Below, piece by piece: positions 2,309 through 35,899 of a stretch of 36,476 nucleotides of DNA (within the stretch, counting starts at the first letter, position 1; each line of letters begins with the position of its first letter). A program made the position numbers and the translations under genes. Source of the DNA: a virus; the IMG/VR virus record IMGVR_UViG_3300050023_000032, positions 1 to 36,476 of that record, one strand, 5' to 3'. The notes beneath the pieces were generated by a model, which did no database searches, had not been told where the DNA came from, and worked only from the letters and a program-made list of their open reading frames with translations.

Positions 2309-2997
2309 GCGTTGAGTTTTCATCAGTCAAGTCTAGCAATATTCGAGTAGAGGAAGGCACTCCCGGAGGTAGGACCTACCATGTGGTGCTGCCTGGCAAG
2401 GGACAGTACGAACAGACAGTCTGCTTCAGACGTATGCATAAGGCTCCTAACATGCGTTGTACCAACAGGGCAGGAGCCGGCACATATCACGTTTCGACAG
2501 GTGCATGTCGCTTCCATGGGGGAAATAATGGAGCTAATGGTCAGAGCATAACCACCGGACGTAATGCCAAGATTACCAGGCTACGCCTAAAGGATTCCAT
2601 AGAGTCCTATTTGAATACCGATCGTGCTTCATTGCTTGACCTAAACTACGAGCTGGCTTGTGCTAAGGCAATCTTCGATGAGTTTATGTCCGTGTCTCCC
2701 GATCCAAGACAGAACGAATATGGCATTTTCCTTAATCGTTTTCTTACTATCATTTCTTCGATGAGTAACCTGGTTGATCGCATGAGCCGAGTGGAGAACA
2801 GGAACACATTAACGGCAGCACAAGTTTTATATCTTAGGGCAACTGTTGCGGACATCATTATGAAATATTTGCCTGAGCCTATGGACCGTGAACGTGCAGC
2901 ACGTGAGATCGCAAATAGAATGGGTGGCAATCAAGATATGTCGTTGCAGTTATCACCTAGTGAAGTGAGGATGATCGATGCCGACACTGATTCTTAA
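2305..2997 (+). CDS. terS: putative terminase small subunit
   Basis: 230 residues. The N-terminal part has a potential zinc-binding set (C40, C52, C68, H71) in the form GACRFHGG, followed by a Gly/Asn-rich turn and then an all-helical region. Phage proteins with a CRxHGG element next to a terminase gene are often annotated as small terminase or DNA-recognition subunits, which bind the packaging site and load DNA onto the large subunit. The large subunit starts at 5287, separated by three tagged genes. The role is inferred from the motif and neighbourhood. It overlaps the next gene by 20 bases. Confidence 0.5.
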   Translation: MSVEFSSVKSSNIRVEEGTPGGRTYHVVLPGKGQYEQTVCFRRMHKAPNMRCTNRAGAGTYHVSTGACRFHGGNNGANGQSITTGRNAKITRLRLKDSIESYLNTDRASLLDLNYELACAKAIFDEFMSVSPDPRQNEYGIFLNRFLTIISSMSNLVDRMSRVENRNTLTAAQVLYLRATVADIIMKYLPEPMDRERAAREIANRMGGNQDMSLQLSPSEVRMIDADTDS

Positions 2998-3928
2998 GAA
3001 AGATTTTCCCGATCATAAAGGCATTCCAGGCCATCGAGGAGGCAGTCTTCCTAGAGGTGTTGTCACGTATGGAGTTATTCATACTCCTGAAGAAATGATT
3101 CAAAGGCATCGTCATGCCAGGATTCATCACAAGACTCCAGACTTGGTAAAAGATTATGGCGAGTTGAGCGATTGGATGACTTATCATTATCCAAAATGTG
3201 GTTTTGATATGGACAAGGCAGATTTTGCCTTAGCAAAACGTACGATTATGCGATTTCATCAATTAGCACAGGAATATCCAGAAGTAGGACAATCATTCAG
3301 ATCTATATATTCGCACGATTTTGTAGCAGGAGATAGTAATTTTTGGGGACGAGAGTATAGCGAAGAACGTAGTGATGGCATTCCTACACATGTCCTTGAA
3401 TTGAATAATCATTGGTTTAGCAATCCACTAGAATTGGACAATGCTGTGGCAGCTTGTGGAAATAATGGATGGCATCCTACAGGATGTGATACCATAGAAT
3501 CTGTAATTACGCACGAATTTGGTCATGCCGTTAGAGATCGTTATATATACGATACTACTGATACGGCATTCTTACCAGTAGTAAGAGCTTCAGGATTTGG
3601 TTTGATGCCAGATTTAATTAATACGTTTGAGAAAGATAACATAGATTATCTTGATCCGGCATATCTATATCCTTCCCAATATGCTAAAAGCAATCGTAAT
3701 GAATTATTTGCAGAAAGTTTTGCCAGTTTGTATCATACACCTGCTATAAAACAATTGCCGTATGTCAAGAATGTTGGAAAACTTCTTGATGTTATCAAAA
3801 CTAGTGCTAGATACACAAAGACAAATTGGCACTGGTTTGAGCCTGGCAGCTGGGAACAGAATAAGGCTATATACGAACCTATTATGGCTAAGTTGCGTGG
3901 TGCTGGCATTAAGGTTGATAAGCTATGA
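2978..3928 (+). CDS. tagged zincin-like metalloprotease
   Basis: 316 residues. The first 25 carry a variant of the shared tag (DFPDHKGIPGHRGGSLP). HEFGH at residues 179-183 matches the HExxH zinc site of zincin metallopeptidases, and NELFAESFA at 241-249 provides the downstream Glu expected as third ligand, as in gluzincin-like proteases found in phage and conjugative-element polyvalent proteins. The likely activity is peptide-bond hydrolysis of a host or virion protein; the substrate is unknown. It starts inside the terS 3' end and is coupled to the next gene by ATGA, within the packaging block. Confidence 0.75.
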   Translation: MPTLILKKDFPDHKGIPGHRGGSLPRGVVTYGVIHTPEEMIQRHRHARIHHKTPDLVKDYGELSDWMTYHYPKCGFDMDKADFALAKRTIMRFHQLAQEYPEVGQSFRSIYSHDFVAGDSNFWGREYSEERSDGIPTHVLELNNHWFSNPLELDNAVAACGNNGWHPTGCDTIESVITHEFGHAVRDRYIYDTTDTAFLPVVRASGFGLMPDLINTFEKDNIDYLDPAYLYPSQYAKSNRNELFAESFASLYHTPAIKQLPYVKNVGKLLDVIKTSARYTKTNWHWFEPGSWEQNKAIYEPIMAKLRGAGIKVDKL

Positions 3929-4883: not shown

Positions 4884-5294
4884 ATGAAAGCAATCGTTCG
4901 ACTAAAATCCTTTCCAAACCATCAAGGCATTCCTGGACATCAAGGAGGAAGCCTTCCTAAGAATGGTCCTAACATTGATAAGGAGATTGCAATCATATCA
5001 GATGAATTGAATAAGCATAAGGATACGTTTGAGTCCGCTTATATTGTAGGTAGCTGGGCTGCTATGGATCCACGACGCATGCCTGATAGACATGGTCCTA
5101 AGACGTCGGACATAGATTTAATGCTTCAGGAGAAATGGAAATTACATGGCAATTCTATTATGGAAGCATGGGACGTAGCAGCTAAACTTGAGCCTATGCT
5201 TACTAAGAAATTAGGACGTCCTGTGCATCTTAACGTAGCACCAGTATCAGGTGGTAATCCATCGAAGAAGATATGGAGTAGTAGTAATGTTTAA
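4884..5294 (+). CDS. tagged nucleotidyltransferase-like protein
   Basis: 136 residues. Residues 7-25 are the shared tag. The remaining domain has VGSWAA at 55-60 and SDIDLML at 75-81, the GS...DxD signature of the nucleotidyltransferase superfamily (MNT, kanamycin nucleotidyltransferase and related AMP transferases). The third acidic strand appears as VHLNVAP, with His where Asp is usual, so the protein may be inactive or divergent. Activity would be transfer of a nucleotide to a protein or small molecule. AAGGA upstream supports the ATG. It overlaps the large terminase start by eight bases. Confidence 0.55.
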   Translation: MKAIVRLKSFPNHQGIPGHQGGSLPKNGPNIDKEIAIISDELNKHKDTFESAYIVGSWAAMDPRRMPDRHGPKTSDIDLMLQEKWKLHGNSIMEAWDVAAKLEPMLTKKLGRPVHLNVAPVSGGNPSKKIWSSSNV

Positions 5295-7620
5295 GACGTC
5301 AGCTCCACCAACTAATCTTCAAGAGTTAGCTATAGGCATCCAGCAAGCCGTCCATATCTCTGGTGGCTATAAGCGTTTCCAAAGGATGTATGCCAACGAT
5401 CGTGTGGCATTCGCATATGATTGCTTTGGCAAGGTAGGCAAGACTTTAACGTTTTACCAAGAAGAGATCCTATCCTATTTCGATGAAGGCTTTACACGTG
5501 TGGCAGTACGTGGTCCGCATGGCCTTGGTAAGACCTATCTGGCATCTATCTTGGTTCATCATGGCGTGCTGACGGCAGAGGACGATGCCAAGGTTATCAC
5601 TACAGCAAGCGCATGGCGTCAGGTAGAGAAGTACTTATGGCCTGAGATCAAGAAGCTATCCAAATCCATCAGTTGGGACATGATAGGCAGAGAGCCATAT
5701 GATCCAAACCATGAGTTCCTTCAGATGTCAATCAAGCTAAACTATGGCACCGTCGAGGCCTTTGCCGTCGTATCTGATGACTATCAGACTATCGAGGGTG
5801 CTCATGCCAAGAAGCTTGTCTACATCTTCGATGAGGCCAAAAGTATTCCAAGAAACACCTGGAACGCTGCCGAGGGAGCATTCTCTAACGCATCCGTTGG
5901 TAAGTCAGATCATCCGCTTGAGTTAATCGATAGGGGAGAGATAGGCTTGATTGAGGAGAACGTGCCTTACTTCAATGAGGACAAGCCTATAGCAGATGTC
6001 TGGGACATGATTATGGCAGGACAGGATCCTGACGTGGGAACTGACGTAGCTTATAACCAGGGAATCAAGTTCGATAGTCCGCTTGCAGTTTATCAGCCAG
6101 GAGCCAAAAAGAATAAATCAGAGCCTATCAGATCCCCTATGGCTAAAACCATGATCGATCAGCAATCAAAAACATCAGTCGTTGATAATAAATCCCCTGA
6201 GGACGTTTACTACGATGATAGTGTAAGGGACGTAGTCATGGATAAGTGGGGAGAGGAGATTAGGAGGATAGAGCAGGATGATTTAGAGGGAGGGAATAAT
6301 TTAGACGTAGAGAATGACCTATTAGATAGTGACGTCGAGTCTGATAGGGATTCAGATAGTAGCACGCATAGGCAAGGGAAAGCACGTCAGTCATCAGTTA
6401 GCGATAGGGATTATGTAAATGGAGAGGAAGAGAATTCCCGACGGTCCGGTCGTGCCTCAGGACGTGCAGAATCTCTGCCCATAGCGTCCCACGATGCTGC
6501 CGTGTCTCCCTATGCGGAGCATGATGGAGCACGTGCACTGCGTGGCGATCGTGCTCCTGACGTAACTGACGTGCCCAGCGTGCCTACCTATGCTTCTGAT
6601 AGTAAGGCACGTAAGGACTATGCTGTCCCTATGGGGACACGTGCTAATGATAGCAATCCTATGCTTGTGCCCAAAGGGCCTATCACTCATCGTGGTGGCA
6701 CACAGGAGCACGTATTCCCTATCACTGATCAAGCACAAGCATTCGCTATCAGTACACCAGGAAATCCTGATGGGCAGTTCTACGATATACACACGCATGC
6801 TCCTGGCTACGAGGATTGGCACGTAAGGCACGTCACACTCGATGACGCTATACGTGCGGGACGCATCAGTCGTGCGTGGGCAGATCAGCGTGCACGTCAG
6901 TGGGGACAGGATAGCGCTCTCTTCAAGAATAGAGTACTAGGAGAGTTTGCTGATAGCAGTGAGGAGGGCATGATACCCCTATCGTGGGTGCGTGCTGCTA
7001 ACGAGAGATGGAAAGCATGGCGTGATCGTGGCTTTCGTGGGGAGGAAGGATACAGAAGCATAGGCGTGGACGTGGCACGGTCGGGCGACGACAAAACCGT
7101 GTTTGCCGAAAGACAACGCTCCGGGGTCCGAAATATCCGTGTATTCTCAAAACTTTCCACCACGACTGTCGCAGAGCGACTGACGCAATGCCACGATGGA
7201 CGCTACCTCCATATAGAAATGGACGGTGGCTTAGGTGCTGCCGTCTATGATATATTGAAGCGTGGTAAGGATGGACGTGGAGGTCTTGCCTCTCGATTGC
7301 TTAAGCCTATCACCGTAGGTGCTCCTACTACCTGGAGAGACCGGTCGAAAATGATGAAATTCCTTAACGTTCGTGCCGCTATGTGGTGGAACATGCGTGA
7401 CCTGCTTGATCCCTATTATGATAGCTCGATTATGCTGCCTCCCATTGAGGAACTGACAAAGGACTTGACTACACCTCAGTACATCGATAAAGGAGATAAT
7501 GTCATCGTGCTTGAGTCGAAAGATTCCATTCGATCGAGACTAGGTAGGAGTACGGATTTCGGGGATGCGGTCTGTCTTGCTTTTTGGGGACAGACTGGTG
7601 GTGGAGGAGTAGTTATTTAG
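5287..7620 (+). CDS. terL: terminase large subunit with a long acidic insertion
   Basis: 777 residues from the ATG at 5287, chosen over an upstream GTG at 5251 because GGAG lies eight bases before it. The ATPase domain has Walker A RGPHGLGKT (about 76-84) and Walker B LVYIFDEAK (177-185). AFAISTPGNP at 485-494 resembles the coupling motif and is followed by the conserved stretch leading to the RNase H-like nuclease, with acidic positions GVDVARSGDD (593-602), HIEMD (642-646) and STDFGDA (755-761). Residues about 204-482 are an extra charged, Asp/Ser/Arg-rich, low-complexity segment that separates Walker B from the next motif. The motor packages DNA into proheads and cuts concatemers. Confidence 0.93.
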   Translation: MFKTSAPPTNLQELAIGIQQAVHISGGYKRFQRMYANDRVAFAYDCFGKVGKTLTFYQEEILSYFDEGFTRVAVRGPHGLGKTYLASILVHHGVLTAEDDAKVITTASAWRQVEKYLWPEIKKLSKSISWDMIGREPYDPNHEFLQMSIKLNYGTVEAFAVVSDDYQTIEGAHAKKLVYIFDEAKSIPRNTWNAAEGAFSNASVGKSDHPLELIDRGEIGLIEENVPYFNEDKPIADVWDMIMAGQDPDVGTDVAYNQGIKFDSPLAVYQPGAKKNKSEPIRSPMAKTMIDQQSKTSVVDNKSPEDVYYDDSVRDVVMDKWGEEIRRIEQDDLEGGNNLDVENDLLDSDVESDRDSDSSTHRQGKARQSSVSDRDYVNGEEENSRRSGRASGRAESLPIASHDAAVSPYAEHDGARALRGDRAPDVTDVPSVPTYASDSKARKDYAVPMGTRANDSNPMLVPKGPITHRGGTQEHVFPITDQAQAFAISTPGNPDGQFYDIHTHAPGYEDWHVRHVTLDDAIRAGRISRAWADQRARQWGQDSALFKNRVLGEFADSSEEGMIPLSWVRAANERWKAWRDRGFRGEEGYRSIGVDVARSGDDKTVFAERQRSGVRNIRVFSKLSTTTVAERLTQCHDGRYLHIEMDGGLGAAVYDILKRGKDGRGGLASRLLKPITVGAPTTWRDRSKMMKFLNVRAAMWWNMRDLLDPYYDSSIMLPPIEELTKDLTTPQYIDKGDNVIVLESKDSIRSRLGRSTDFGDAVCLAFWGQTGGGGVVI

Positions 7621-21505: not shown

Positions 21506-22939
21506 GTGCCATATGATAGCAAGTCCCAAGCAAGAATAAAGAAATTAAATGGCGTCGAACTGACGTTAGCACAGATAAATGCTATAGCACGCATGGCTGA
21601 TGCCATAGGTGGAGATTTTGGATGGCCTACGGCAATAAGCAAGTTCAAGAAATCGCATAGCATTAAAGACGGTGCTTGGGTCGAAAGTGCTGAGAAGAAA
21701 GAAGTTCAAGACGTCTATATTGAGAAAGAAGCTGACGGTCGCTGGAAGATAACGACTGTTTCAACTGCTGACGTTAAGGACTTGGTTGGCGAAACTTTCG
21801 ATAAGGCATCTATTGACTATGATGCCAAGCTTGCTGAAACTACTGGCGAATATCCCGAATATCGTTTGTTCCATAAGGAAGCTTTAGCCATAGGCAAGGT
21901 TACCAAAATGGGACGTTCTGGCATATTTGCTGTAGATGAAGGCTATGCTTATGATGATCCGTTCTCTCAGGCAGTTGCAGAAAATATGCTTGCCAAGAAT
22001 GATGGCAAGTGGCGATGCTCTCGTGGCTTTTATGTTCTAGAAGCAAAGGGAGGCTGTCCTAAGTGTGGTGAACAGCTTGTCCTTCATAAAGAGCATATGC
22101 TATCCGGTTTTAGGTGCCCGACTTGTAAGTCGGTTCAGCTTAAGTACAAAGGGACGCTAAATGATCTGCGTTTCTTGAAGACCAAGACTTTCGACATTAC
22201 AATTACGGACATACCTTGTATGCCGTGGTCGGGGGTCGGTGCAGTGAAAGAATCTACAAACGTGGAGGTTAAGGAAATGGATAAAACCGTGTTGAAGCAA
22301 AAGTTGCTTGACGCTGGTCTTGAAGAGGCTGCCATCGATTCCCGGCTGAAGGACGTCACTGAAGCTCAGCTAAAAGAATATGATGGGATCCCGGAAGCCA
22401 AGCTGTTCAAGGAATTGGGAGTTGAAGAAGCGGTAGAAGAAGAATCCGCTGCTGAGACTGAGGAACAGCAACCTTCCTCAGAAGAACAGACCTTTGTCTT
22501 AGATGAGACGGTCCTCAAGGAATTTTCCAAGATTGTTGCCGATCAGCTTACTGAACGGTTAGATGGCTTGACCATTGATTTGGGAACCGATCCGACCGTC
22601 AATCTTAAGGAACAGCCTGAGTTCGTGCAGATGCAGAAAGACGTTGCTGAGCTGAAAGAGATGCTTTCGACGTTGGTTAAGACCGATGTGCAGCGTCTCA
22701 AAGAACTGAATGCCGATACGCCTCGCAACGGTCAGTTGCGTGTGATGCGTTTCAAATCGAAAGCCAAGAAAGTCGATCCGGCTGTCGATGACGAAGAAGA
22801 CGCTGCCGACAATGGCGACGATGAGGCAGCTGAAGGCGAAATGCCCATGAAGCGCAAGAAAGAGTTCGTTGCTATCAAGGATGCTTCTGGCAAGAGCTAT
22901 CCGAACCTGACTAGTTTTGTTACCGGAGGTGCGAAGTGA
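21506..22939 (+). CDS. prohead protease/scaffold fusion with a zinc ribbon
   Basis: 477 residues from a GTG behind TAGGA. The middle region has YPEYRLFHKEALAIGKV (His123) and KWRCSRGFYV (Ser172), positioned like the catalytic His and Ser of XkdF-like / HK97-type prohead proteases, which trim the capsid after assembly. A CPKC...CPTC zinc ribbon (184-207) follows. From about residue 255 on, the protein is acidic and coiled (MDKTVLKQKLLDAGL, then Glu-rich), as expected for a scaffold. The GTGA link to the capsid gene supports the role. Protease activity is inferred. It is the obvious candidate for cleaving the shared tag. Confidence 0.65.
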   Translation: MPYDSKSQARIKKLNGVELTLAQINAIARMADAIGGDFGWPTAISKFKKSHSIKDGAWVESAEKKEVQDVYIEKEADGRWKITTVSTADVKDLVGETFDKASIDYDAKLAETTGEYPEYRLFHKEALAIGKVTKMGRSGIFAVDEGYAYDDPFSQAVAENMLAKNDGKWRCSRGFYVLEAKGGCPKCGEQLVLHKEHMLSGFRCPTCKSVQLKYKGTLNDLRFLKTKTFDITITDIPCMPWSGVGAVKESTNVEVKEMDKTVLKQKLLDAGLEEAAIDSRLKDVTEAQLKEYDGIPEAKLFKELGVEEAVEEESAAETEEQQPSSEEQTFVLDETVLKEFSKIVADQLTERLDGLTIDLGTDPTVNLKEQPEFVQMQKDVAELKEMLSTLVKTDVQRLKELNADTPRNGQLRVMRFKSKAKKVDPAVDDEEDAADNGDDEAAEGEMPMKRKKEFVAIKDASGKSYPNLTSFVTGGAK

Positions 22940-24369
22940 GTGAGAAATTTGGTATGAGTGCCGAACAAATTGGGCAGCTTGGTGCCTCGATCGGTATGGC
23001 TATGTCCAAAGCCAACAACCAGTATGGACAAGGTGTATTGCCGAGGGAATTCAAAGCCTATACGGACATGACTCCCTCCACGACCAATATCTACGGTCGC
23101 TATTCCATCTTCGATCCCTGTTCCAATGGGGACGTGTTCGGTTTGCAGGTTGCAACGGTTGGCCTGATGAACTGGATCGGATGGCGTCCTAATCAGTTCT
23201 ATCGTCGGCACGTGGACTTTATCACCTGGATGGGTCCTGAAGGGACCGCTGCCGGCTCTCCGAGAACTGGTGCCATTGCTCCTTGCGACGATCCTTACTC
23301 CTGGGAATATGGATACTGCGGCTATGACTTGCTGCATACCTCCTGGTATGGCATCGCTGGGCAGTCTTTGGATCCTCACACCATCACTCAGGTGCGCTGC
23401 GAAACGACTCCTCGCTATCGCCTGAATGGCGTTCAGATCATGGATGATGTCGAGTGGCAGATGAATGGCATCCTCAATGTGTTGCAGCAGCAGCTACGGC
23501 ACGCTCTGGTTACCGGCTCTCACGACAATGCCCACGAGATGAATGGTCTCGAAAGCCTTATCAAGACTGGTTACACTGGCGACAATGGCGAGAACTGCGC
23601 CGAACTTGACAGTATCGTCAAAGCCTGGAACGATAACCTGGATGGTGCGGTAAACAATCTAGGCAATTTCTTTGACTACTTGGATGAAGTAGTCACGGAA
23701 ATCGAGTATCGCTCTTCAGCCATCGGCACCATTTCCGAAACTGACATGGTGCTGTTTACCAGTCGGTTCATGGCGACCTGCCTGTTGGATGCCTATGCTT
23801 GCTACACCACTTGCGGTGTGACTGACACTGGCGACGTCACTGATCAGGCTCTGCGTGCACAGCAACGTGCTGCTCGCATGGCTCTCAATGGTGGTCCTCT
23901 GTACGATGGTGCAGCTGCGGTTGGCTTCTTGAATCTGAAATCCGGTCGTCGTCTGCCGATCATCGTTGACGATACCTTCACCATCACCAAGCCTGTTGCG
24001 GACTACTGCACGGACATCTACCTGCTGACTCGTCGGATCGGTTCCATCGACGTGCTGTATGGCGAGTACCTGGACATGCGCATCTACGAAAATCGTGTCA
24101 AAGCTCAGATGCCGATGTTTACCGCTCGTGCGGACGCTGCCGGTCGTTTTGTAACCAAAGGCAAGGAAGACAACTTCTGCGTTCAACTGATCATGGGCAC
24201 CTCTCCTGAAATCTACCTGAGTGCTCCTTGGGCTCAGGTACGTTTTGAGAACGTGTGCTGCTCTCGCAAACGCCAGCCTATCTCGAGCAATGTGTTCTCG
24301 CCCAAGTACCTTCCTGGCGGGACGCCTTTGCACAAAGTCGTCGTAAATGATGAAAACGACTTAGCCTAA
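22936..24369 (+). CDS. major capsid protein
   Basis: 477 residues from a GTG overlapping the protease stop. It directly follows the protease/scaffold and is followed by a strong terminator; it uses a more GC-rich, restricted codon set than its neighbours (many CTG, CGT, ACC, ATC), typical of the most highly expressed gene. Sequence features of an HK97-fold capsid are compatible: N-terminal helical arm, then alternating strands and helices, and a C-terminal strand. No residue-level signature is diagnostic, so the identification rests on position, size and codon use. About 13 cysteines are an unusually high number. Confidence 0.75.
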   Translation: MSEKFGMSAEQIGQLGASIGMAMSKANNQYGQGVLPREFKAYTDMTPSTTNIYGRYSIFDPCSNGDVFGLQVATVGLMNWIGWRPNQFYRRHVDFITWMGPEGTAAGSPRTGAIAPCDDPYSWEYGYCGYDLLHTSWYGIAGQSLDPHTITQVRCETTPRYRLNGVQIMDDVEWQMNGILNVLQQQLRHALVTGSHDNAHEMNGLESLIKTGYTGDNGENCAELDSIVKAWNDNLDGAVNNLGNFFDYLDEVVTEIEYRSSAIGTISETDMVLFTSRFMATCLLDAYACYTTCGVTDTGDVTDQALRAQQRAARMALNGGPLYDGAAAVGFLNLKSGRRLPIIVDDTFTITKPVADYCTDIYLLTRRIGSIDVLYGEYLDMRIYENRVKAQMPMFTARADAAGRFVTKGKEDNFCVQLIMGTSPEIYLSAPWAQVRFENVCCSRKRQPISSNVFSPKYLPGGTPLHKVVVNDENDLA

Positions 24370-31096: not shown

Positions 31097-32596
31097 ATGA
31101 GCAATTACTATAAATTTAAAGACGGACGAGTGTGGCTTCAGACTAAAAAGTTCCAGCCATATGAGTTACTGTTGCCTTATGGTTTAACTGGCGTCACGGA
31201 TCCAGCTGGCAACTTGAACGCTATTCGTGAACCATCCCCAAGCAAGCGTGGCGATTCAGTCATCGTCGACGTGGTACGTGGCGAGCCTGGTTTGCCAGCG
31301 TTCCAACTCGAGACACGGTTACAGAAAACCAAGAACTTACTGTTTGGCCTGAAGGACTGCAACTCCAACGTCCAGGATCATCTTGGTACGTGCGATCGGC
31401 CGGACAACTACTTCGCCTCAAGCATGGTGTTCCACTGGGAACGCTCGCATCGTGGTGATCTGAGTGTGAATACTCTTGCCATTATGGAAGGCGATAACAC
31501 TGCCGTGGGCATGACTGCTCCTTTTGTGGCTGAAGTCGGTCCCATGTTGTTTGATATGAATGCACAGTTCCTTTCGCTGCGAACCATTCTGGAGACTGAA
31601 GCCATCACTGCCATGTCGTTCCTTGGGCACGAGTGCTTCGAGGACTGCAAGGCTCAGGAAGCTGCTGGCGAGAATGGCTATGTGGCGACTGGAGCCAAAG
31701 TCGGATCAGCTGGCAATGTGGCAAATGTTTGGTTCACCGAGGATAGTGGTCAGAATTGGGCAGGACTGTCGTCTAATCCATTCGCTGGCGGTATGGATAT
31801 TAGCGACATTGTGGCTCTTGGATCTAAGCATAATCATCGTGTGTTGGCATCCAATGGCACGACTCGTGCCGGACAACCTGCTCAGATTGCTTATGCTGAC
31901 GTAACTGATCTTGGAACTGCGACGTGGGTAACTGTGAACGTTGGAGCAGTCTTAGGCCAGTATATCAAAGCATTGCTGGTGCTTGATTGGCGGCACTGCT
32001 ATGCTGTGACTGATGATGGTTACATCTATCTTAGCAAAGATGGTGGAGCCACTTGGACTGCCAAATTCACGACTGGTGCTGTGGATTTGAACGATATTGC
32101 CGGACTATCCAATGGTGAAATTTGGGCTGTTGGTAATTCGGAATTGATCGTGCATAGCAATGACTATGGCGAGTCGTGGACGGTTATTACTGGTCCTACT
32201 GGTGGCATAGGCAATGACTGCACAGCAGTTTGTGTAACGCCAGATGGCACCATGCTGATGGGCAACAATGCCGGCGAGCTTTATGGCACCTACGATGATG
32301 GCGATGAGTGGACTACGTTGAGTGCCCAAGGCATCACGGCTGCTAGCATCATAGCTATCAAGTGCTGGGGAGATAGCGATATCTTCCTGGTTGCTGATCT
32401 GGCAAGCGGAGCGTCACGTGTGCTACGTAGCATCGATGGTGGAGCTACCTTCAGGCTGTGGTCGCTGGCTGTCCCTACCAATTCAGGTCTGACTTCTCTG
32501 GAAGTAGTTGATCCGAACGTAGTGTGGGTTGGTGGTAATGTGCAAGGCACGTACGCTGCTATCACTCGCACGCAGTCGAACCTGATTGGCCTATAG
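31097..32596 (+). CDS. probable tail tube protein with Asp-box beta-propeller
   Basis: 499 residues. Position between neck and tail chaperone genes is that of the major tail protein, and residues 1-180 would be the tube domain. From about 195 on there are five Asp-box-like repeats (TEDSGQNW 214, SKDGGATW 313, SNDYGESW 354, TYDDGDEW 398, SIDGGATF 445), the S-x-D-x-G-x-x-W turn of sialidase/BNR propellers, with the usual beta blade between them. A propeller on each tube subunit would decorate the tail and may bind glycans. A hairpin follows. The tube assignment is by context; the propeller is visible in sequence. Confidence 0.7.
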   Translation: MSNYYKFKDGRVWLQTKKFQPYELLLPYGLTGVTDPAGNLNAIREPSPSKRGDSVIVDVVRGEPGLPAFQLETRLQKTKNLLFGLKDCNSNVQDHLGTCDRPDNYFASSMVFHWERSHRGDLSVNTLAIMEGDNTAVGMTAPFVAEVGPMLFDMNAQFLSLRTILETEAITAMSFLGHECFEDCKAQEAAGENGYVATGAKVGSAGNVANVWFTEDSGQNWAGLSSNPFAGGMDISDIVALGSKHNHRVLASNGTTRAGQPAQIAYADVTDLGTATWVTVNVGAVLGQYIKALLVLDWRHCYAVTDDGYIYLSKDGGATWTAKFTTGAVDLNDIAGLSNGEIWAVGNSELIVHSNDYGESWTVITGPTGGIGNDCTAVCVTPDGTMLMGNNAGELYGTYDDGDEWTTLSAQGITAASIIAIKCWGDSDIFLVADLASGASRVLRSIDGGATFRLWSLAVPTNSGLTSLEVVDPNVVWVGGNVQGTYAAITRTQSNLIGL

Positions 32597-32665: not shown

Positions 32666-33262
32666 ATGATTAATAACGATCTGCATGGCACGCAATTCAC
32701 GCTGACATCAGGCTTTACTATTGTGGTAAAGCCTTTGCCTCCGTATTATAACGATTTTATCGAAGATGCGTTGCCATTGGTTGAACTGCCAAAGCGTAAG
32801 TTACATCTCAAGGCTGGCGATTCCATCGACGTGGAATATATCGAGCCTAAGGAATTTCCTACAGACATTGATGAGCAGGAATTATACCTACGTTACAAGA
32901 CGGCAGTCAAGGACAATGAGCTTATTGATAAGCAACGAGCACGTACCAAGATCAACTTCTTGCTTACCAATTGCATCGACGTAGTTTCAGGACCTATAGA
33001 AGAAATGGATTATGCATGGAAGGACAGAATAGCCTTATCGTTACCTAACTACAAGCTTCCTGTCGATCCTGCCATGCTTCACATAGCTTTTATCAAGAGT
33101 CAGGTGATAACCACGCAAGTGGAACTAGATGCCGTACTGTCGGCATGTTTCTATCCGGAGGTCAATATCCAGGGCATTATCAATGCTCTGGGACACTTTC
33201 AAGATAAAGTTTCAGGACCAAAAGTTGTTGGAGTTGATAGAGCAGCGTCAGGAACAGGGTGA
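32666..33262 (+). CDS. tail assembly chaperone, gpG-like
   Basis: 198 residues. It lies between the tail tube and tape measure genes, the universal place of the tail assembly chaperone pair. The protein is mixed alpha/beta and ends with QDKVSGPKVVGVDRAASGTG, a poorly structured tail that is an out-of-frame reading of the next ORF. A second ORF overlaps it in the +1 frame, as expected for the frameshifted gpGT form that links the tail tube to the tape measure. Function inferred from position and the overlapping frames. Confidence 0.7.
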   Translation: MINNDLHGTQFTLTSGFTIVVKPLPPYYNDFIEDALPLVELPKRKLHLKAGDSIDVEYIEPKEFPTDIDEQELYLRYKTAVKDNELIDKQRARTKINFLLTNCIDVVSGPIEEMDYAWKDRIALSLPNYKLPVDPAMLHIAFIKSQVITTQVELDAVLSACFYPEVNIQGIINALGHFQDKVSGPKVVGVDRAASGTG

Positions 33263-33440
33263 CAGCGATTTTGATATTAGGATGTTCGAAGCGGAAACTG
33301 CAAAGGCTTATGGAATACTATTTGATGAACACTGGTATTCCATTCCTTTATATACAAGGGAAATCATGATTGCTGTGAGGCTCGGACGTAATTGGATTGA
33401 CATGCTTAGCCAAGAAGAAGCTATGAGGCACATGAAATGA
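33129..33440 (+). CDS. tail assembly chaperone extension, frameshift product
   Basis: Open in the +1 frame relative to the gene at 32666; the part after about 33197 is protein-like (FKIKFQDQKLLELIEQRQEQ, then AKAYGILFDEHWYSIPL), while the part before mirrors gpG. No internal ATG has a good ribosome site, so a +1 (or -2) ribosomal shift is likely. Candidate slips: CAC-TTT-C at 33194-33200 (TTT to TTC, both Phe) and CCA-AAA-G at 33218-33224 (AAA to AAG, both Lys). The product would be the gpT-like C-terminus. It overlaps the tape measure start (ATGA). Confidence 0.65.
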   Translation: MPYCRHVSIRRSISRALSMLWDTFKIKFQDQKLLELIEQRQEQGDSDFDIRMFEAETAKAYGILFDEHWYSIPLYTREIMIAVRLGRNWIDMLSQEEAMRHMK

Positions 33441-35899
33441 GCGATCAAGCTGCTGATACCTTTTCTGACAATGACCTGCTGTTTCAAGCTGACGTTAAGG
33501 ACAATACTCAAGCGTTCTTCGACAAGTTCGATGCCAATGTCCAGAAAGCTGATCAGACGGCACAGACAGGCTTTAATGGCGTATCTACGTCTGCAAATAA
33601 ATCCAACACGGCATTGGCAGCAGTTGCAGGTGTGGTGGCTGGCATAACCACATTCTTGGTTGGTATGGCTAAGGCAGGTGTGGAAGAGTTTGCCAACATG
33701 CTTCAGGAAGCCTATAAAGTTACTGAAGCATATGACAAGATGGCAGCCACAATGTACATTGTCGGTCAGAATGCCGGCTATAATAGTAAGCAAATGGATA
33801 CTTTTGTAGCTGGCATGAAGGCTGCTGATATGTCGTCCATGGGTGCTGTGCAATCTCTTACCAAGATGGCTCAGGCACAACTAGATCTTACTAAGTCTCA
33901 AGCTCTTGCCACAGTGGCTGCGGATGCTAGTGCTGTGTCCGGTCAGACGCAAGCAGCTGCCATGGATGAGATTGTACGGTCTATTGAAGTTCTGTCGCCA
34001 AGACTTCTACGTACTATGGGCATTTACGTGGACATGACCAAGGAAGAGAAGAAGTATGCTGAGGCACACAACACCACGGTTGCTGCCTTGGATCAGAGTA
34101 CCAAACAGCAAATCATGCTGAATGCCATCTTGGATCAAGGCAAGAACATTCAAGGTGCTTATGCAGCAGCCATGCAGACAGCTGCCGGTCAAGAGATGAA
34201 ACAAGCACAATTGACTGATGAGTTCAATCTTGCCATAGGTAGATTGGTTCAGCCTGTTTTGTTGCAATGGCTTAAGACAGCTAATGGTCTATTGTCTGAT
34301 TTGTTAGGATGGCTTGATAAAAATAAAACTGGTATTGAAGCATTCTCAAATGATTTTGGAAATTCATTTGCACTATTGATAAAATCATTGACAGATTTTG
34401 TTAACAGTGCTAATACAGGTACGACAGATGTAATGAATTTCTTTGATAGAATGGTCAAGAGCATAGTTGCTGGTAACAAGACTGCTGAGAATAGCGTAGA
34501 CGATTTCTTCTCAAGATTGACTAACTTGCATACGGCTGCCGATTCACTGAACAAAGTGTTCATCATGTATGAAGCCACTGCCAAAGGTATGTACATGGAA
34601 GTAGGTGCTGTAGTTGCAGCATGGGCTATAGCATTTTCCAATTTAGGTAAGGTAATGCAAGGCACCATGTCAGTTTCAGATTATGCAACCAGTCTGAAAC
34701 AGTTGTTTGCCGTGGTCACATCTGGTGACGTTGCTTATAACGAATTCAAGAAATCTGTGGCAGAACAGATTCCATTGATGCAAGACGTTACCAAAGTTAC
34801 TAACGATGCAGCAGCAGCTGCTGCGGCACAAGCCAATGCCTTGAAGCAAGAAGGCGATGCGGTTGATGCACTTGATCAGAACCTTACCGACTTGCAGAAG
34901 AAGCTAGAGGAAGACAAGGCCACTGCTGCAATCAAAGCACAACGAGACGTTATCGAAGCCGAACTGCGTGACAGTTGGGCACGTCAGGACATGGCTAAGA
35001 ACCTTGCCGACAATATCACTCAGATTGAGCAAAACTCTCAAGATCAACGTGTACAGTTAGTACAGCAGTATGCAGATCAGCGATGGCAGATTGAGCATAA
35101 TTATCAAATAGCACTCAAGCAATTGGAAGAGCAATTTGATTACGATACTAGTGAAGCTGCCAGACGTAGGGATGCGGTAAGCATGCTAGCACTTGTTCGT
35201 AAGAATGAGCAAGACGTCAAGAAGCTAAAGGAAGGCAAGACTCAGCAAGAGGACGATGCCAAGCGTAGCTTTGATAAGCTGATGAAGGATCAGACCGATG
35301 CTCTGGCAAAGCAGATTAAGCAAGCCAACGATTCTTACAATAAACAGTTAGCTGATTTTGCACAATCGAAAGATCGTGAGAAACAGATCCAAGACTTGCA
35401 CGATAAGTGGGCACAGGAAGATATTCAGCGAGCCACTGACAAGCAGTTACAGACCTTCATCGATCAGTACAATGGCATGGATGGAGCAACCAAAGATGGA
35501 TTGAAGCAAATACTAACTGACTGGGGATCTTATTTCACTGATTTGTGGAAGCTAATAAATGCTAATGCCCCTGGCATATCCAACACCATCAATAATATGC
35601 TTAGACCTGGCGAGCGTAATCCATATACTCCTGTAACTCCGTCTAATCCACGACCTGGCGAGCGTGGAGGTAGTGTAACAGGGCAGGCTGGTTTGGTAAC
35701 AAGCATGCTTACTCCTTATGGGATGCGTGCCGCAGCTTTGGATACGGCATCTACTTCACGTGTGCCATCGGTGCATCCTCAATCTGATAAGAGTGGGCAT
35801 AGGAGTGTGGACGTGAACGTGGCTGGCAATGCCTTGGATCCGTATATTCAGCGCATCATGGTACGTGATTTGATGGAAATTGAGAGGAACGCTTCATGA
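33437..35899 (+). CDS. tail tape measure protein
   Basis: 820 residues, long and mostly helical. A hydrophobic segment (ALAAVAGVVAGITTFLVGMA) lies near residues 55-75, and a second region (KTANGLLSDLLGWL) near 285. From about 475 to 690 the sequence is a charged coiled coil (TDLQKKLEEDKATAA, DVKKLKEGKTQQEDDAKRSF). Tape measure proteins set tail length by stretching inside the tube and help DNA entry. Using the usual rule of about 0.15 nm per residue the tail would be roughly 120 nm. Position after the chaperones supports the call, as does the disordered Gly/Pro segment near residue 735. Confidence 0.85.
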   Translation: MSDQAADTFSDNDLLFQADVKDNTQAFFDKFDANVQKADQTAQTGFNGVSTSANKSNTALAAVAGVVAGITTFLVGMAKAGVEEFANMLQEAYKVTEAYDKMAATMYIVGQNAGYNSKQMDTFVAGMKAADMSSMGAVQSLTKMAQAQLDLTKSQALATVAADASAVSGQTQAAAMDEIVRSIEVLSPRLLRTMGIYVDMTKEEKKYAEAHNTTVAALDQSTKQQIMLNAILDQGKNIQGAYAAAMQTAAGQEMKQAQLTDEFNLAIGRLVQPVLLQWLKTANGLLSDLLGWLDKNKTGIEAFSNDFGNSFALLIKSLTDFVNSANTGTTDVMNFFDRMVKSIVAGNKTAENSVDDFFSRLTNLHTAADSLNKVFIMYEATAKGMYMEVGAVVAAWAIAFSNLGKVMQGTMSVSDYATSLKQLFAVVTSGDVAYNEFKKSVAEQIPLMQDVTKVTNDAAAAAAAQANALKQEGDAVDALDQNLTDLQKKLEEDKATAAIKAQRDVIEAELRDSWARQDMAKNLADNITQIEQNSQDQRVQLVQQYADQRWQIEHNYQIALKQLEEQFDYDTSEAARRRDAVSMLALVRKNEQDVKKLKEGKTQQEDDAKRSFDKLMKDQTDALAKQIKQANDSYNKQLADFAQSKDREKQIQDLHDKWAQEDIQRATDKQLQTFIDQYNGMDGATKDGLKQILTDWGSYFTDLWKLINANAPGISNTINNMLRPGERNPYTPVTPSNPRPGERGGSVTGQAGLVTSMLTPYGMRAAALDTASTSRVPSVHPQSDKSGHRSVDVNVAGNALDPYIQRIMVRDLMEIERNAS

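Follow-up and report, generated by a model that had tools for sequence, protein, structure and literature searches.

In phage lambda, the tail assembly chaperones gpG and gpGT are a short product and a longer, frameshifted one, which bridge the tape measure and tail tube proteins (PMC5009743), and the shift is in the -1 direction. The preliminary description of the sequence analyzed here held that most such pairs use -1 slippage and that +1 and -2 are rarer. This is correct in outline, as far as the accessible portions of three sources go (PMC3498833, PMC5009743, PMC10885494): protein sequencing proved a +1 shift for Tsh in Listeria phages and in SPP1, and the only natural -2 case known by 2012 was that of Mu (PMC3498833), arterivirus -2 frameshifting being a later addition (PMC5009743). 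The training set of PRFect contains 350 forward and 2368 backward sites, counted irrespective of gene type (PMC10885494), and HSTV-2 likely uses a +1 shift (PMC5009743, PMC8211752).

The slip site considered here resembles that of influenza PA-X, UCC_UUU_CGU, in having UUU in the P site followed by C, and UUU_C was predicted from PA-X as a class of +1 sites (PMC3498833). PA-X belongs to a eukaryotic virus, however, and is described in the available text as having no evident stimulator and a very low level of shifting (PMC5009743). Where structure is concerned, the counterpart is yeast ABP140: a conserved stem-loop, its base placed two codons upstream of the slip, brings +1 frameshifting from ∼40% up to 60%. 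The effect is lost when one codon is added, and when other heptamers were tried, the stem-loop helped only the one at which the P-site tRNA can re-pair (Fenton et al. 2025, PMC12661321). Engineered hairpins also favor +1 from a position by the E site when the A site is slow. One placed beside the E site gives +1 in 70S ribosomes at ∼60% of the effect of a Shine-Dalgarno (SD) duplex, and only without RF2 (PMC6321510); another, placed upstream, stimulates +1 in yeast (PMC3639245). The SD spacing for +1 is given as 3 nt (PMC5009743). In T4 gene 60, a 5' stem-loop whose pairing is completed at the mRNA exit draws the mRNA in the 5' direction (PMC5009743), but this serves a 50-nt bypass that also involves nascent-peptide and stop-codon elements (PMC11194080). 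In the literature found, as far as its text was accessible, natural forward slippage through structures behind the ribosome is so far known from the one yeast gene and T4 bypassing, alongside the engineered constructs.

The putative chaperone locus and its homologs

The window is the whole 36,476-base virus record IMGVR_UViG_3300050023_000032; the features of interest are collected in Table 1. Directly 5' of the tape measure (TMP) gene, an overlapping pair of ORFs is found in the window and, in the same order, in five homologous loci. In the window, frame B is open from 33129 to 33440 (stop at 33438-33440), lies in the +1 frame relative to A and overlaps it by 134 nt, and the start of the TMP gene (33437) overlaps the stop of B. 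The predicted A-B fusion has 257 residues.

Table 1. Positions of the features discussed, on the coordinates of the window.
Feature	Position	Strand	Remarks
Putative major tail protein (MTP), C-terminal BNR/Ycf48-like repeats	31097..32596	+	assigned to the tail from its position alone
ORF A, putative tail assembly chaperone N-domain	32666..33262	+	zero-frame product 198 aa, TGA 33260-33262; five homologs, precedes TMP
GGAGG, SD-like	33157..33161	+	35 nt 5' of slip; GGAG in 6/6 loci
5' hairpin CCAGGGCATT-ATC-AATGCTCTGG	33169..33191	+	-12.7 kcal/mol; base 5 nt before UUU; proposed +1 stimulator
UUU_C slip site (candidate)	33197..33200	+	P-site tRNA-Phe would re-pair UUU -> UUC (+1); A-site codon CAA; 6/6 loci
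Slip contexts, first three loci			CAC_UUU_CAA (window), GGG_UUU_CGG (L011), GGA_UUU_CAA (L012)
Slip contexts, other three loci			UCC_UUU_CAG (L013), GGU_UUU_CGG (L030), AUG_UUU_CGG (L031)
Transframe part B	33198..33440	+	80 aa counted from UUC Phe, plus stop; B-frame similarity to homologs back to this Phe
Tape measure protein gene	33437..35899	+	phrog_339 tail length tape measure protein, E 1.7e-5

A and B gave no match in Pfam, PHROGs or NCBIfam family searches. An AF2 model of A built from 6 rows reached a pLDDT of 77.8 and a pTM of 0.57, and fold searches with it against PDB and BFVD gave no hits at E <= 0.001. By position and architecture, A and B form a putative tail chaperone pair; we infer this role, as we do the occurrence of the +1 shift and its rate. 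The likeness to gpG/gpGT is thus one of a short and a long product, whereas lambda shifts by -1, the window would shift by +1 at UUU_C, and A is without a family or fold match to known chaperones. The +1 shift of Listeria phages and SPP1 shares with this locus its direction and its place in phage tail genes, but it lies in Tsh, the tail tube protein, and not in chaperones as here. No tRNA gene was detected within the window. BNR/Ycf48-like repeats of the kind found in the putative MTP are also visible by eye in the ORFs preceding A in L011, L012, L019, L030 and L031.

The homologous loci were reached through the capsid protein of the window (22936-24369), named major capsid protein (MCP) on grounds of conservation and position, which retrieved 14 related viral contigs. 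Five of these carry homologs of A: L012 (contig G002), L011 (G005), L013 (G006), L031 (G008) and L030 (G009). No A homolog was found in six contigs searched whole (G001, G003, G004, G007, G010 and G011), which may be fragments; for L039-L041, the search for A covered the retrieved loci and not the whole contigs. Together with the window, the five homologs make up the six loci compared below, of which the window, L011, L012 and L030 form group 1 and L013 and L031 form group 2. The A proteins are 39-47% identical inside group 1 and 36% inside group 2, and those of the two groups are related to each other by profile comparison (probability 92, E 6e-7). In all six loci, B lies in the +1 frame of A, so that the frame relation noted earlier for the window extends to its homologs.

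Other queries added little. Searching viral_contigs and phages with A returned the source record only, and the window TMP found no useful relatives in the same two collections; nor did MCP searches of phages and genome_contigs, and the MTP search gave known records only. The group-2 TMP had weak matches in 511 phage records, and among the matches listed, the best were mostly T5-like TMPs. In G006 (IMGVR_UViG_3300032118_003132), the MCP lies at 23.2-24.6 kb and the TMP gene begins at 63.4 kb, ∼39 kb apart as deposited, compared with 9 kb in the window.

The candidate slip site and the probable entry into frame B

UUU_C occupies the same aligned position in all six loci, its UUU encoding a Phe close to the C-terminus of A; in the window this is F178, one of eight residues invariant across the six A proteins. 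TTT followed by C makes up 5.9-12.1% of the Phe codons in the ORFs of these records, and the product of these chances over the six loci is 4e-7, a value that ignores the relatedness of the loci. Among homotriplets in the overlaps that could slip in the P site, TTT_C alone recurs at a single aligned position throughout the six loci, and the overlap of L030 contains no other homotriplet slip. The similarity in frame B reaches the same point: the transframe part starts with F-x-[IVML]-x-[WF] in every locus, and B-frame BLAST alignments start at residue 1, the Phe of UUC, in five of six group-1 pairs. Since the B query sequences began at this Phe, these alignments bound the slip from one side only; the limit on the 5' side comes from L012, whose frame B opens only 2 nt ahead of the slip.

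Both TTT to TTC and AAA to AAG had been put forward as candidate slips that keep tRNA pairing. The first is the one that is conserved at a single aligned site, while the second is confined to a minority of the loci. In the window, AAA_G occurs at 33206-33209 and at 33221 (a further homotriplet, GGG_T, is at 33257), tRNA-Lys could re-pair there from AAA to AAG, and L031 also contains AAA_G at other positions. However, the overlaps of L011, L012, L013 and L030 have none, and the conservation of frame B extends 5' of AAA_G to the UUC Phe. We rejected AAA_G as the slip on these two grounds, and consider it very improbable that ribosomes slip at either AAA_G instead of UUU_C or besides it. The statement that both slips give the same downstream peptide is correct from FQDQK onward, but the junctions would differ: GHF/KIKFQDQK for TTT_C and GHFQDK/FQDQK for AAA_G (the slash marks the point of the shift).

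Other shifts fit the locus poorly. The same frame could be entered by a -2 step, as the preliminary description allowed; from our reading of the sequence this is unlikely, because tRNA-Phe would be unable to re-pair two bases back. A -1 shift on an X_XXY_YYZ heptamer does not fit the window: B lies in the +1 frame, and the third frame closes two codons past the slip in four of the six loci. The stop codon of A lies 21-93 nt 3' of the slip across the loci, so the predicted shift would not reflect a stop-codon pause. The A-site codon is CAA in the window and L012, CAG in L013 and CGG in L011, L030 and L031. When codons were ranked over ORFs of at least 200 aa, all frames counted, CGG was the third-rarest of the six Arg codons in L011 and the second-rarest in L030 and L031; CAA is not rare in the window.

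We also considered that no fusion is made and that B is a gene in its own right, its translation beginning at an internal start codon. In frame B, the window offers two ATG codons (33129 and 33183) and, 28 nt past the slip, a TTG with AGGA upstream, and SD-like sequence likewise precedes an ATG at +7 in L011 and a GTG at +49 in L013. Neither ATG of the window is preceded by SD-like sequence, however, the positions of B-frame starts are not conserved among the loci, and the first ATG, GTG or TTG comes only 40 nt (L012) or 88 nt (L030) past the slip, at a point where the B protein is already conserved. The late starts of L012 and L030 and the lack of positional conservation therefore speak against translation of B solely from its own start, the outcome that the preliminary description had set against a frameshift, and an independent B seems to us highly improbable. 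Because SD-like sequences precede some of the B starts, extra internal initiation of B may occur besides the fusion. As for the fusion itself, the conserved site, the conservation of frame B back to its Phe and the unconserved B starts make it very probable that ribosomes enter B through a +1 step at UUU_C.

A predicted stem-loop 5' of the slip site

A stable stem-loop approximately two codons 5' of the slip, which the preliminary description did not mention, is clear in the four group-1 loci, and the picture is mixed in L013 and L031. The group-1 hairpins have predicted energies of -12.7 (window), -14.3 (L011), -15.8 (L012) and -13.5 kcal/mol (L030); the stem base lies 4-5 nt 5' of UUU and the CAG/CUG core exactly two codons 5', the base of the core being 6 nt before UUU in the window. 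When all codon positions of A and B are compared, the hairpin at the slip ranks 2/242 (window), 2/246 (L011), 1/248 (L012) and 2/239 (L030), the tied position in L011 and L030 being the next codon. For the window, L011, L012 and L030, respectively, p was 0.0127, 0.0147, 0.0013 and 0.0027 against protein-preserving recoding and 0.0087, 0.0075, 0.0012 and 0.0037 against within-gene synonymous shuffling, values that are flattering because the hairpin was first spotted by eye in these same sequences, the 4-7 nt spacing window was chosen only after that, and the group-1 rows share ancestry.

Folding energies give a related picture. For the 35 nt before the slip, p was 0.016 (window), 0.0047 (L011), 0.0007 (L012), 0.049 (L013), 0.0007 (L030) and 0.006 (L031), so that this energy is nominally low in the two group-2 loci as well. 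The 80-nt folds of group 1 have z values of -1.90 (window, matched by 7 of 200 shuffles), -5.06 (L011), -2.73 (L012) and -4.75 (L030), and those of group 2 have z values of -1.06 (L013) and -0.85 (L031).

Codon usage was compared at residues shared by all four group-1 proteins: codons are identical at 4 of 6 such residues inside the element versus 1 of 29 upstream (p 0.0014). Leaving out the slip Phe gives 3 of 5 (p 0.006), and the stem residues alone give 2 of 4 (p 0.033). Two of the eight stem pairs are altered on both sides (C-G versus G-C, and G-C versus A-U, with G-U in the window); with four rows, this covariation is not significant (60 of 500 shuffles were as high).

These observations bear on the possibility that the +1 shift at UUU_C is real while the hairpin arose as a by-product, through coding and common descent; the site would then act unaided or together with effects of the codons in the E and A sites, much as proposed for PA-X. 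The lack of significant covariation fits this possibility, as do the use of UUU_C by group 2 with mixed hairpin support only and the example of PA-X, where the source consulted describes no evident stimulator and a very low level (PMC5009743). The recoding and codon-identity tests go against it, and the stem-loop occupies the position that is active in yeast (PMC12661321). We regard a by-product as a real but lesser possibility, and our analyses tip modestly toward the hairpin as a stimulator of the +1 shift in group 1.

In group 2, small hairpins appear at the corresponding place in the folds of both loci. With the same spacing window, the hairpin of L013 gives p values of 0.045 (recoding) and 0.094 (synonymous shuffle) and ranks 12/236, and that of L031 gives 0.13 in both tests and ranks 45/262. 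A covariance model of the group-1 hairpin strongly finds its four training members only, and on this ground we rejected a hairpin of similar sequence shared by both groups.

An SD duplex of the kind acting in RF2 was considered in two forms. As the common stimulator of all six loci it was rejected: anti-SD pairing near the slip is unremarkable, ranking 26-89 of 236-262 codon positions across the loci. It could instead replace the hairpin near the E site in L031 and L013, where AGGAG and AGGA end 4 nt and 5 nt, respectively, before UUU, and engineered hairpins are reported to mimic SD duplexes for +1 in 70S ribosomes, if less strongly (PMC6321510). The anti-SD pairing of these two loci ranks just 26/262 (L031) and 58/236 (L013), however, and the spacing differs from the 3 nt given for +1 (PMC5009743), so we consider such a replacement unlikely. 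Farther upstream, the GGAG found in every locus has probabilities of 0.08-0.64 per locus under a synonymous null. RNAalifold also pairs GAGG with UUUC, through pairs that are invariant across rows, and GGAGG may pair with UUUC in the free mRNA.

Relatives that shift by -1 and a proposed mechanism

The group-2 tape measure search led to ten further viral contigs, two additional loci being the group-2 records themselves. In all ten, by raw count, the second chaperone ORF lies in the -1 frame and the overlap contains an X_XXY_YYZ heptamer. Six relatives in bacterial genomes, read from the ORF list, comprise five -1 arrangements and one locus (L059) without a clear pair, so that 15 of the 16 distant tape-measure relatives are in the -1 frame. 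At their own slip sites, the ten viral -1 relatives have hairpin ranks of 23-210 of 210. In a poorly resolved TMP tree of 23 rows, the +1 users fall in two places, an arrangement compatible with one origin of +1 or with more. Two distant MCP relatives, L040 (18217) and L064 (1945), have a -1 arrangement at C_CCU_UUC. They use the UUUC tetranucleotide mirror-wise, with UUC in the zero frame and UUU in the shifted frame; profile comparison detected no kinship between their chaperones and A.

We propose that most ribosomes would translate A through to its own stop (33260), whereas a minority would pause while the P site holds UUU (33197-33199). The peptidyl-tRNA-Phe would then re-pair one base forward on UUC, and translation would continue in the +1 frame to give the 257-residue fusion, a minor, gpGT-like chaperone product whose synthesis would immediately precede that of the tape measure protein. 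In group 1, refolding of the hairpin at the mRNA exit would draw the mRNA in the 5' direction and favor the forward step, and a slow A-site codon (CGG in three of the six loci) may assist. This account as a whole, a +1 step at UUU_C yielding an A-B fusion with the group-1 hairpin as proposed stimulator, appears likely to us from the sequence comparisons.

The group-1 element is laid out as the yeast, 70S and T4 studies would lead one to expect. The likeness to ABP140 lies in a stem-loop whose base is two codons 5' of a P-site codon able to re-pair in the +1 frame (PMC12661321). The slip differs (CUU_A in ABP140, UUU_C in the window), the mRNA is that of a bacterial virus and presumably read by 70S ribosomes, and the hairpin is known from sequence, clear in four of six loci. 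The engineered constructs are artificial, built on CUUUGA or CUUCGGC (PMC6321510, PMC3639245), whereas the sequence of the window is natural. With PA-X, the comparison extends beyond UUU_C: three of the six loci have CGG in the A site, where PA-X has CGU, and L013 shares UCC in the E site (PMC3498833).

A stronger reading is that a natural +1 frameshift in a bacterial virus is driven by a hairpin that refolds co-translationally 5' of UUU_C, an independent counterpart of ABP140, and that the direction of the shift and the type of stimulator differ together from those of the more distant relatives, whose -1 heptamers lack a 5' hairpin of this kind; we rate its chances as even. As +1 shifts in phage tail genes were already known, what would be new is a 5' hairpin of natural origin at a +1 site of a phage, resting on four sequences; our search of the open-access literature, within the text it made available, found no paper describing one. 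If this reading is true, a compact phage element of hairpin, two-codon spacer and UUU_C extends the effect of 5' structures to bacterial viruses, and provides a small natural test case for 5' refolding that sets the direction of a shift. The UUU_C site also fits the class of +1 sites predicted in PMC3498833, and annotation tuned to -1 heptamers can overlook such +1 fusions.

Elsewhere in the window, eight ORFs (starts at 1622, 2978, 3925, 4884, 11243, 26171, 28311 and 30442) contain a similar stretch of approximately KSFPxHxGIPGHQGGSLP. In seven of the eight it lies at the N-terminus or close to it, and the proteins behind it otherwise differ. Six of these ORFs have no Pfam match at E <= 0.01 and two have weak ones. 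One of the eight, at 2978-3928, contains a zincin-like HEFGH motif, and its sole Pfam match is weak (PF07737, E 0.00068, below the curated cut-off). The shared stretch is perhaps a signal for packaging, processing or delivery. The large terminase (5251-7620) has no Pfam match at E <= 0.01 and matches phage terminases in two pieces that cover ∼58% of it, which suggests that it contains a long insertion.
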